Source: Antedon mediterranea (lineage: Eukaryota > Echinodermata > Crinoidea > Comatulida > Antedonidae). Taken from it: a stretch of DNA of 64,000 bases. The notes beneath the pieces were generated by a model. The model was not told the origin of the DNA. It saw nothing but the letters and a program-made list of their open reading frames with translations, and did not search any database. Of this stretch, positions 34,819 to 56,919 are shown piece after piece. Location of the stretch: positions 34,295,648-34,359,647 of the forward strand of contig NC_092673.1 in the NCBI RefSeq assembly GCF_964355755.1, read 5' to 3'. Position 1 is the stretch's first letter. Every line of letters starts with the position of its first letter. A program made the translations under genes and the position numbers.

Positions 34819-37800
34819 ATGGCTTCCTCAAGTTGTACACGAGTCCTTTTACTATGCTGTGGTTCATTTAATCCGATAACAAATATGCATTTGAGAATGT
34901 TTGGTAAGTGATCCCAGCATACTTTTATTTGTTTATTTAGCTTAGCAATTTTGACAATTATAAGTACCTCTTAACATGGTATATTTTCTAGGGCCTAGCC
35001 TAGCCTACTACTAGCTAGGCCTTGATAGGTCGATGGATGGGTTATCAGACGATCGGGACGACGGACGATCGGGCCCACTTCAAGACGATCGGGCCCAGAG
35101 ACGATCGGCCCAGACGATCGGGCCCAACAAACAAGACGATCGGGCCCAAAACATTCTCGGAAAAAAAAAAAAAAATAAACAATAATATTAATAACAATCA
35201 AAATCAAAATGAAAAAATGACTGTTTTGTGACCTTGTTTGAACAGGTGTCTACTACTACTACAGTAGGTTAGGCCTAGACTAAAGTAGCTAGTAGTACAG
35301 TGCTAGGCCTAGCTACTATAGTGTAATGAATGAATTCCTAGCCTTTCTCTGTGAATAAAGGGGTGCAGGTCAAGTCGGCCCCAAACCGTCTCGGCCAAAG
35401 TCAAGTCGGCCCCACGTCATGTCGGCCCCAAGTCAACTCGGCCTCAAGTCAACTCGGCCTCAAGTCAACTCGGCCTCACGTCAACTCGGCCAAAAACTAA
35501 TCGGTCAACTCGGCCACAATAAATTATGGAACGCAAAAAGTGCTTAATATTATTACGATTCTTACTATCCACGTTTTAAAAAAAATGAAGAAATAAAAAA
35601 TATAATATCATATAAAAAAATGAACTCATTGCCGATATGAATAGAAGTACCCGCATGTTACAAAAAACACGTGCAGGTACCGTATTTTAGGAAATCGAAG
35701 ACGGAGGCCTACGTTCCACCATTTGGCCGTAGAAAAAATGATCGTACATCGTTTTTGTGCATGATTTGCGTTTTTTAAAAAGGGGAATCCCCCGGTCAGC
35801 GAAAACATGTAGCAGTTGTAGATATCGAAAAAGCTGGCAAACGCGCAGGGAGGCTCAGCTACGAAATTTTATTAAACGTAAATAAAGGAAAGTTGGTGAA
35901 ATCATTCCTATTTTTTTGGCTAAATATATTATTGTCTAAATAATAATATTCATTAAAAGTCAGAATTATTCATAGTTAAAAAATTGTGAAGAAATATTAT
36001 TTTATCAATCCCCTTCATTTGCACTTTTTGCGTTCCATACTTTAACGGGGCCGAGTTGACCGATTATATTTTGGCCGAGTTGACGTGAGGCCGAGTTGAC
36101 TTGAGGCCGAGTTGACTTGAGGCCGAGTTGACTTGAGGCCGAGTTGACTTGGGGCCGACTTGACTTTGGCCGAGACGGTTTAGGGCCGACTTGGATCGAA
36201 ACCGAATAAAGGATGGTGTATCTATGCAGCTACTGTTAAAGTAGCCTCTAGGCTGATCAAATTTTCCCTCCACTCTGGACCATATATCCATGACATGATG
36301 ATTGATTCATGATGTTATAATATATTTAATCAATAATTATTGATATTGTTTTTTACAGAAATTGCAAAAGATTATCTACATCGTACTGGAAACTATAAAG
36401 TTCTTGGTGGTATTATTTCACCTGTAAATGATGCCTATGGAAAGAAGGTAACAGATATTCAAACTTTACAATCTCAATACAAGATTCATTCTTTCTGATG
36501 ATTCTGAGCACTACCCATTTATGGGAGAAAGTAATTTATTTTAGTGAGAAATATAATAATAATATTTTATTACAATTTTACAAGTTACATTCACAGTGTT
36601 CTCTTGCTATAATTATTTTCAGTTTTTCTTTTTAATTAAATAAAATTCTATACTAACTAAAACGTGACAATCTTTCTTTTAACTCTCAGGATTTAATTGA
36701 TAGCGTACATCGCTTGGAGATGTGTCGTCTAGCCCTGCAGAGTTCTGATTGGATCAAAGTTGATTCATGGGAATGTGAACAGAACAAATGGCATCCAACT
36801 GCTAAGGTACTTTTCAATGTAAAAGGTCATTTATTATTTAATGTCAATCAGATGTGCAGGACACAATAACAATTTTACAAAAACAAAAGACATATCACAG
36901 AGACTAGCTTTACAAATATATTACCAGGAAGGTGAATCAGTAAAAGGAAATGGCCTTGGCACACTGGGTACAATTGCTTAAAATATAAATAACAAATAAT
37001 ACTTGCTGAACATCAATATTGAAACAAACAACATAGTTTCTATTTTTTACAATTTATTTTTCAATTCTCCTTTCTTTTGTATTATGAAGCTTTAACACTA
37101 ATAATATTATAGAAACTATAACATGAATCAATATTTATATAATAATAGAGCAAAATATTGATTATTTCTTTGTGAAAAAATACAAAGCAACATTCATAAA
37201 TGAACTAAAAGGATGACACGCAAAATCGTAAAGCGTTCCATATTTTTTTATATACGGCCATACTGCGTTGAAACACCGGTTCTCGTCAGATCACTGAAGT
37301 TAAGCAACGTTGGGCCCGGTTGCGTTCTGGATGGCAGACTGTCTAGAAATCGTGGCGGGTGCTGTATATACTGGAGAGTGATGGTGTATTGGTAATATCG
37401 GACTAGCATGTGATAGGCATGGGTTCAAGGTTATCTGTACCATACTAATTACATCCTTAGGCAAGATGCTTTACTCTCATTGCCTTCGCCTTCGGATGGG
37501 ATGTAAAGCCGTTGGTCCCGTGTACTTAACAGTGCACGTTAAAGAACTTGGTACACTATTCGAAATGAGTAGGGGATCGCCTCCCGGTGGGCTGATCTGG
37601 TAGGCGCTGCACTGCTGGCTTTCTTGGGTCCGTAGAGGGCCTAATCCGAATTTCCTCAGTTTCCAGTTAAGCACGAGGACTAAGATAAATACCTTTACCT
37701 TTTTTAAATTACTATTGTAAAATATAATTTAAAATAAATAGAAATGTATTCTTACATTGTATGTAATATATAACTATCTGAGGCTATTTAGTAGTAAACA

Positions 37801-54853: not shown

Positions 54854-56919
54854 GGGTGCAGGTCAACTCGGCCCTAAACCGTCTCGGCCAAAGTCAAGTC
54901 GGCCCCACGTCAAGTCGGCCCCAAGTCAAGCCGGCCTCAAGTCAACTCGGCCTCAAGTCAATTCGGCCTCACGTCAACTCGGCCTCAAGTCAACTCGGCC
55001 TAAAGTCAACTCGGCCAAAAACTAATCCGTCAACTCGGCCTTTAAAAAGTATGGAATGCAAAAAGTGCTAATATAGTAGTTCATTTATTACAATGGCAGG
55101 ATATAGTACGGTTAGGCCTATATAATAGACGAAATAAAACGGAAATTTCAATGTAAATTAAAACACACTGGCTGATCGTTTTTCGTTTAATTGATAGGTA
55201 ATTTTTATTTATATTGTTGGTTGGTTTGTCTCAGTAAGAACCCTCAGTAATGTGTTTGTTAGATCTATTTTGAGGATGTTCCCAGAAATAATCGCAAATA
55301 TTCTTAGAAGGCCTATATATTATATAGATATTATTAGATTAATACAGTAAAATAAAAATGTTTTTTTTTTGTATATATTCTCTCTCAAATTATTAGCAAT
55401 ATGTCACGGTCAAAGTGAATAACTATATGTGACATTAAAATGGTATATTACAGTAACAAAATCTTTTCACACATTTATTGACGATGTCAATCAAACTACC
55501 GAAGAGATTATGGAAACAAATTCGGAATGTTCTGTCATGTTAAATTTCTATTGCAATTGTGCGCTATTCAAATTGTTTTTATTACTTTTGTTAGGCCTAT
55601 TTGATTATAATGGAGAATCCAATGAATACATTTATGGGAAATTAATCTAAAACACACTGAAGAAATCATCATGAATAAATGGTGTATTTTTATTTTGTCA
55701 AGCATAAAAACTAATCTAAAACACACTGAAGAAATCATCATGAAAAAATGGCGTATTTTTATTTTGTCAAGCAAAAACTAAAACATATTGTTTGAGTCCA
55801 AAACAACGGAATTCCTAAACAACATAATATTGCCTTTGCATTCTCATCTGTTTTTTAACACCCACCGCGCCCTGTATTGTTCAATAAAATTGATCACCTA
55901 AAGGGGCATTCCCACCGTCCGTACCTGTTCCGTTTCGCGGACGGCGCCGTTTTTTCAACGTGACGCGCGCCCGTTCACCGTTCCGTTTTAAACATTCACA
56001 CCTGTTCCGTTTTGTGACGTGACGTTAAAATAGCAGCCGTTTCTGGATGATCATCGGATGGTAGTGAGGAAGAAATTATTCTTTTTAGTTTAATTAAAGA
56101 TGATATTACAAAACGGGACACAAGATTCCCGATGATAGTATAACAACACACACCATGACAAATTCCATGAATCCATAATTAAATACAATAAAATCATATC
56201 ATCAATAAAATATGGACTGTTATGGAAGCAAATTTCTCTCTTCCCATGGTGTACTGTATTAATTATGAATAATTATGAAGTACTAAACGAAATGAAAATA
56301 AAAATGTCATACAAAAAAACCTGTAAGGCCTATTTGAAAATAATGCACATTCATGTCTGGGGTGTGTGTGCATGTAACCTATACCCATAATGCTTATGCA
56401 ATTTGTTTTCTTGCCTTTTGATTTGTTTTGATTTTAATGTCATTTTATTCTTTTTATATTGATGTATATACAGTTGTAGACCGAAGTATATTGTTTAAAT
56501 ATTATTTTTTTTAATGTCTTCTTCGACAGTTATTCCTGTATACAAAATGTGAAGAAATATTTGTTTATTTCAAACAATATAAATAAATACTACCTATCAA
56601 TTAATATTATATAATCATTTATATTGAATTTTCCGTTGTATTTCGTCTATTATGTAGGCATAACCGTACTATATCCTGCCATTATAATATTAACTACTAT
56701 ATTAGCACTTTTTGCGTTTCATAGTTTTTAGAGGCCGAGTTGACGGATTAGTTTTTGGCCGAGTTGACGTGAGGCCGAGTTGACTTGAGGCCGAGTTGAC
56801 GTGGGGCCGAGTTGATGTGGGGCCGAGGTGACGTGGGGCCGAGTTGACTTGGGGCCGACTTGACGTGAAGCCGACTTGACTTTGGCCGAGACGGGTTAGG
56901 GCCGAGTTGGATCGAAACC
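54854..56919. mobile_element. Fold-back element copy 2, CAACTCGGCC arrays, 8-bp TSD
   Basis: It starts GGGTGCAGGTCAACTCGGCC and ends GATCGAAACC, as does copy 1, and is flanked by GTTAGAAC at 54846-54853 and 56920-56927. The inverted arms extend beyond the word arrays to about 55215 and 56575, sharing TATGGAATGCAAAAAGTGC-like and TAACCGTACTATATCCTGCC words (the latter inverted). The 2.07-kb element holds about 1.36 kb between arms. This includes two direct copies of a 65-bp segment (55648-55775, AAACACACTGAAGAAATCAT) and a GC-rich ACCTGTTCCGTTT patch at 55905-56040 that looks like half of another TIR element. No transposase frame. Confidence 0.88.

Follow-up and report, generated by a model that had tools for sequence, protein, structure and literature searches.

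Foldback transposons such as FB/NOF end in arms with tandem repeats, and the TU elements of the sea urchin Strongylocentrotus purpuratus, said to have been described by Liebermann et al. in 1983, are reportedly foldback elements with outer domains of ~15-bp tandem repeats, 8-bp target duplications and modular cores; we know of no transposase for them. Here we analyzed two elements in a 64,000-nucleotide stretch of the crinoid Antedon mediterranea (NCBI RefSeq assembly GCF_964355755.1, contig NC_092673.1, positions 34,295,648 to 34,359,647; hereafter the window), and consider it very probable (about 88%) that both belong, as non-autonomous members, to a DNA transposon family of the Mutator superfamily (MULE) with a foldback build. 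In this build the family is closest to Tm1 and, going by the reported features above, to the sea-urchin TU elements.

Tm1 is a Mutator/Foldback family of Meloidogyne, the root-knot nematodes, and its description (Gross and Williamson 2011, PMC3169594) reports short asymmetric tips that lie beyond the inverted repeat, as a rule one type per end; arms of tandem 13-15 bp units, variable in number and differing between arms; mostly non-coding copies with a rare coding one; a FLYWCH domain combined with a MULE transposase; and 8-10 bp duplications. All of these have a counterpart in the Antedon family. Tm1 itself has 7-bp tips, a unit of ~CGATTCAGTATCCGC, mostly 9-bp duplications and a 496-amino-acid Phantom-type transposase (PMC3169594), whereas the Antedon family has 11-bp tips and 16-bp units around the core TCGGCC, makes 8-bp duplications in most cases, and carries a PHD finger in addition, with exons spread over ~4 kb. 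Since neither the tips nor the unit word are those of Tm1, with motifs compared by eye against those printed in PMC3169594, we file the family as a further member of the Mutator-type foldback elements, set apart from Tm1 and TU. A sequence-only reading of the window had called the family new-looking, but asymmetric tips outside arrays of ~14-16 bp units, together with a MULE transposase, were already known from Tm1 (PMC3169594).

Other MULE groups share parts of this build. MULE target duplications range from 8 to 11 bp, and the groups include Spectre (8-bp duplications), Phantom and others (FLYWCH) and Rehavkus (PHD finger, minisatellite) (PMC6446971). The Phantom subclass resembles the Antedon family in its FLYWCH domain and MULE transposase, its 8-10 bp duplications and, for some members, foldback-like ends (PMC3169594, PMC6446971), but a PHD finger is absent from its table entry (PMC6446971); the likeness is one of domains. 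Rehavkus, a MULE relative, has a PHD finger and a minisatellite before its 3' terminal inverted repeat (TIR), but its duplications are 9 bp (PMC6446971), and in the Antedon family the array forms part of the TIR and is present in each arm. Tetris of Drosophila virilis has foldback arms with tandem repeats and was assigned to Mutator by its authors, but with 8-10 bp duplications, different repeats and no transposase found (PMC4079207); sea-urchin foldback elements are cited in the same paper.

The two window elements, one of type E1 and one of type E2 (Table 1), had been placed exactly by the sequence-only reading, as checked on the sequence; the tip words are present as it gave them, and the perfect, differing 8-bp duplications GAATAAAG and GTTAGAAC were read beside the two elements. 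The left tip is GGGTGCAGGTC and the right tip, as reverse complement, GGTTTCGATCC. The inverted arms of E1 start at base 11 (bases 11-183 against 661-833, inverted, 94% identity), whereas the outer 10-11 bases differ between its left and right ends. The earlier picture of asymmetric tips with the inverted part mainly in the arrays, and of a foldback family with iterated ends and 8-bp duplications, held beyond the window as well. Two of its figures needed adjustment: the tandem arrays are there, but with units mostly 16 bp apart instead of about 15 bp, and the 7-10 units per arm became 9+9 in one element and 11+11 in the other once degenerate units were counted. When six frames from these two elements were searched against Pfam, none reached a cut-off.

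Across the genome (354 Mb, 18 contigs), a search with the tip words returned 247 left-tip and 233 right-tip matches with at most two mismatches, compared with 0 and 0 for the reversed controls; the right-tip variant GATTTCGATCC was common (81 exact matches). Short copies have common tips, inverted arms of ~180 bp and mostly 8-bp target duplications and are up to 99% identical, and the 40 best-scored genome copies of E1, itself among them, were 92-100% identical. Clustering of 47 copies gave 22 of E1 type and 6 of E2 type, the others having common ends with a different core; several of the deviant cores were due to nested insertions. No transposase frame belonging to the family was noticed by eye in the translated short elements.

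To characterize the insertion sites, 50 tip-to-tip pairs were counted, both tips having at most two mismatches and the length being 400-3000 bp, picked mainly from the exactly listed tips. Read exactly at the tips, perfect direct repeats reached a maximum length of 8 bp in 37 of the 50, as the sequence-only reading would have it, 9 bp in three (L007, L039, L057) and 7 bp in one (L031), while nine pairs had no direct repeat of at least 6 bp, two of them with one mismatch over 8 bp. Left out of the count were three duplicate loci (L001, L002, L067) and four loci outside the criteria, among which L010 and L066 had perfect 8-bp duplications with common flanks and L003 and L024 had no perfect 8-bp duplication. 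The 37 perfect duplications comprised 32 different words; six copies carried the same GTATTATT duplication with near-identical flanks and look like one insertion spread by duplication. As a control, 2450 pairings of flanks from different copies gave 36 agreements over 8 bp, a number for which, by arithmetic, the GTATTATT copies alone account. Target preference was weak, roughly G-T-T-T-A-A-A-C (29 distinct sites of an earlier set). As the 8-bp and 9-bp duplications lie within the MULE range of 8-11 bp, the tip pairs support a place in the Mutator superfamily.

Two groups of related copies were also observed. On C3 (19.7-23.6 Mb), L026, L050-L053 and L080-L082 have a common left flank with GTATTATT and differ in array length; they are probably a single insertion multiplied by duplication and may thus document how arrays grow and shrink in nature. 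On C2, the 2.5-2.8 kb copies L010 (12.05 Mb) and L066 (27.49 Mb) have identical 14-base flanks and the duplication CTTCATAA, and on account of these flanks a larger segment was probably duplicated.

The arms were compared through 865 units collected over the 50 copies. Among 765 printed spacings, 556 were 16 bp, 99 were 15 bp and 87 were 24 bp, and the TCGGCC core and the leading C of the unit were nearly invariant. Outer units follow a fixed order mirrored in both arms, with G, C, G and G as the commonest fourth base of the word at offsets 10, 26, 41 and 57; inner units are mostly of the C type and vary in number. Unit numbers of the left and right arm were almost uncorrelated (r = 0.13), and an element's own arms were slightly more alike than arms across elements (0.909 vs 0.902, permutation p 0.006, 43 elements, subfamily being ignored). 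The long inverted arms of tandem short repeats that mark the foldback class are therefore present. All 59 facing pairs within 6 kb, from 188 exactly listed tips on contigs 1-4, combined one left with one right tip, indicating that the asymmetric tips carry polarity; 70 of the 188 tips were unpaired, partly since mates with mismatches were outside the list.

The superfamily was identified from a long copy. Profile searches gave 36 matches to MULE in the genome, one of which lies 5 kb inward from a left tip on C4 (10916320). At first without a listed mate, this tip turned out to belong to a MULE-bearing copy once extended. This copy (L094+L087, G000:C4:10906040-10916439) has an exact left tip with its array, a right array and an exact right tip 9.2 kb away, and between the tips lie PHD, FLYWCH and MULE exons on one strand, spanning ~4 kb. 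Scores were over the Pfam cut-off for single exons (PHD 1.6e-5, MULE 3.6e-6) and for manually joined exons (FLYWCH 5.7e-6, MULE PF10551 2e-11). The motifs YIDGTFK, MMDFQKGEW and NNDVEGWH, which we take to be the catalytic ones, show D, D and E residues; among solved structures, no relative of the MULE domain was found (best E-value 0.83). In one tip-to-tip copy, the ends of the family thus flank a MULE-type DDE transposase. The sequence-only reading had suggested a hAT relationship and a search for a long copy with a hAT transposase between the same tips; the long copy found does not support this, since what lies between these tips, arms and subterminal stretches is a MULE transposase.

We then compared E2 with the 9.2-kb copy. 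Up to its base 1624, E2 matches bases 101-1273 of the copy in stretches, and its bases 1624-2024 match bases 7410-7831, so that E2 looks, from the alignment, like a relative of the coding copy after loss of a 6.1-kb interior. The same alignment could arise if an unrelated MULE without TIRs had inserted into an E2-type foldback element of whatever superfamily, in which case it would be uninformative on what moves the family; MULEs without TIRs exist (PMC6446971), and the coding copy has no matching target duplication. We nevertheless regard this as very unlikely. No target duplication was found at the E2/MULE junction near E2 base 1624 (window ~56477), and the best inverted match at the ends of the 6.1-kb segment, 16 bp and A+T-rich, is not convincing. 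The same junction also recurs elsewhere: a second coding copy (L095, C4:9.9 Mb, 1 Mb away), with 90% DNA identity over bases 5005-5793 of the long copy (0.8 kb), runs unbroken over the 7410 junction (7320-7442), entering subterminal sequence like that of E2, and has a short, degenerate right array of five units; the C-terminal exon was not matched in it. Finally, a diverged sister MULE on C7 (L096; 49% identical over 323 aligned positions, MULE 9e-12) has its own array in the same relative position, with 17 core words in a 16-bp array ~0.6 kb after the last exon frame. Its array word is related but diverged (AAAGTCGCCC vs CAACTCGGCC, core AASTCGGCC, in the main family), as is its end (GGGATGCTAGTCAAGTCGCCCC vs GGGTGCAGGTCAAGTCGGCCCC), GGGATGCTAGTCAAGTCGCCCC being close to the main family's left tip. 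A strict array scan detected arrays at the 9.2-kb copy and at this sister locus, and at none of 18 comparison loci: five KDZ loci representing two places, three Merlin loci, four hAT loci and six of another zinc-finger element. The majority of these loci extend no more than 1.5-4 kb from the gene match.

Several observations weigh against assigning the family to the Mutator superfamily. The flanks of the 9.2-kb copy, the one coding copy in which both tips were observed, do not match (GTCACACA vs CCCGATCA), so that no coding copy with its own target duplication was found; the copy may be old or rearranged, and the mismatch lowers the proof of mobility while leaving the domain assignment unaffected. 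Its right array is split by a 1.4-kb insertion. E2 bases ~626-754 and 1050-1369 are unmatched in the long copy, and E2 is therefore not a simple deletion of it. The second coding copy has a broken right tip and an array below the strict scan criterion, and the FLYWCH match of the sister MULE (E-value 0.0013) does not reach the Pfam cut-off. Only two of the five MULE loci had arrays in the strict scan, and two C-terminal MULE fragments (L097, L098) had none by either criterion. No intact transposase gene of the lineage was found among the loci searched, where two closely related coding copies turned up, and the short copies are young. Most MULE groups with a given length list 9 bp and not 8 in the table of PMC6446971. 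By our own estimate, ~0.2-0.3 chance neighbours are expected within 6 kb (18 MULE matches and 188 tips on contigs 1-4), and the hAT and P scans gave one tip neighbour each, like MULE. Because a lone MULE match near a tip is thus not rare, the case rests on the common junction and the sister array.

Three further features of these loci were recorded. The ends of the 1.4-kb insertion in the 9.2-kb copy are inverted over 51 bp (GGATCAGGTGCCG...) and are accompanied by a repeat of 8 bp, CCGACTTC. E2 bases 1050-1369 (window ~55903-56222) may be a nested Harbinger-like fragment. In the second coding copy, a remnant of a sister-family array (AAGTCGCCCC words; bases ~7140-7220, reverse complement) adjoins the broken right tip.

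In a hAT family, the transposase would recognise short sites clustered near the ends and leave 8-bp duplications, which were indeed observed. A hAT dimerisation frame also lies inside the tip-to-tip copy at C3:19259680, and a frame in L042 looked hAT-type zinc-finger-like by eye, with no Pfam match over the cut-off. Both frames belong to separate nested elements, however, the first to 1.3 kb common to L020-L023 and the second to ~1.0-1.2 kb common to L068-L073, all of them without arrays, and both were dropped as coding partners. No hAT transposase was found between the family's own ends in the 23 of 59 dimerisation matches checked (contigs 1-4, exactly listed tips), the one match within 6 kb of a tip being the nested one. 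The three copies with 9-bp duplications and the GG...CC tips, where the hAT tip rule gives CA...TG, also disagree with this alternative, and we consider it very unlikely.

The nested elements themselves are as follows. In L019 (G000:C3:19258973-19261905), bases 288-1613 are a hAT-like non-autonomous element with CAGGGGCGCAGCC ends and the dimerisation frame, inside an array, with CTCAC (5 bp) repeated on both sides; the four other hAT matches opened (L020-L023) are the same element. In L042/L067 (C2:7772394-7774357), bases ~260-1313 are an element with AGACGTTCCAACC ends and a frame resembling a zinc-finger exon by eye, with array-less relatives in six other fetched loci and no Pfam match over the cut-off. 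The insertion in L043 (C4:2540508-2542680), bounded by GGGATA...TATCCC and with what looks like a 9-bp repeat, ATAGAAGTA, went into the same target as the one in L042, give or take a few bases.

Membership in P, KDZ (Zisupton) or Merlin, whose duplications are of 8 bp or about that length, is extremely unlikely: Zisupton makes 8-bp duplications (PMC12730594), Galileo is a P-type foldback element (PMC3169594) and P-type, KDZ and Merlin-type matches are present in the genome, but no array was found in five KDZ loci (2 places) or three Merlin loci, on contigs 1-4 neither of two KDZ matches and none of four Merlin matches had an exactly listed tip within 6 kb, and the single P match of 13 that did lay beyond a right tip, on its outer flank. 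No array-bearing copy was found for any of KDZ/Zisupton, Merlin, P or hAT, and all were discarded as coding partners. Long frames inside the 5.2-kb pair L024 look retrotransposon-like by eye, and what had been suspected to be a 14-kb pair on C3 seems to consist of two separate copies. On contigs 1-4, 39 left tips had no exactly listed mate, and 30 were opened, one batch being 20 tips (19 of the 39 and one on C5) at 1.3 kb each; no transposase was noticed by eye in five translated loci of this kind, and L077 runs into a frame resembling a non-long-terminal-repeat retrotransposon.

Table 1. Positions of the two elements, their arms and their target duplications within the window
Feature	Position	Strand	Basis
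8-bp target duplication GAATAAAG, left copy	35353..35360	.	sequence
Type E1 non-autonomous element, 843 bp, tip to tip	35361..36203	+	best-scored genome copies
E1 left inverted arm, 9 CAASTCGGCC-word units, then inner TIR ending AAAAAGTGC	35371..35543	+	
E1 right inverted arm, 9 units	36021..36193	-	
8-bp target duplication GAATAAAG, right copy	36204..36211	.	sequence
8-bp target duplication GTTAGAAC, left copy	54846..54853	.	sequence
Type E2 non-autonomous element, 2066 bp	54854..56919	+	
E2 left array, 11 units	54864..55040	+	
E2 right array, 11 units	56733..56909	-	
8-bp target duplication GTTAGAAC, right copy	56920..56927	.	sequence

With the window elements read as members of a Mutator-type foldback family, a transposase of the type encoded by the 9.2-kb copy, made elsewhere, would bind to the 16-bp words clustered in each arm, probably by its FLYWCH domain or PHD finger, pair the two asymmetric tips and excise the element, which would then insert with an 8-bp stagger, now and then 9 bp. 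The conserved outer units could serve as the core end-recognition module and the variable inner units as extra binding sites, gained or lost by slippage or unequal exchange. A 16-bp step would place neighbouring sites on opposite faces of the helix, and the arrays could thereby load a two-sided transposase filament. We tentatively propose that the iterated words are putative transposase binding-site arrays co-evolving with its zinc fingers, based on two MULE lineages in one genome whose transposases are 49% identical and which each have their own 16-bp array word; this is a possibility that we would not put at even odds. If it is true, divergence of the word would bar cross-mobilisation between the lineages.

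The Antedon genome bears on the role of the tandem repeats in foldback ends. It holds ~240 matches to the tips, whose polarity is strict, and arms in which an ordered outer module is followed by inner units of freely varying number; with an identified transposase type and a sister lineage carrying a diverged word, both the idea that the array consists of transposase sites and the co-divergence of word and zinc finger become directly testable. If the family matches the sea-urchin TU elements, it would also suggest a superfamily for TU.

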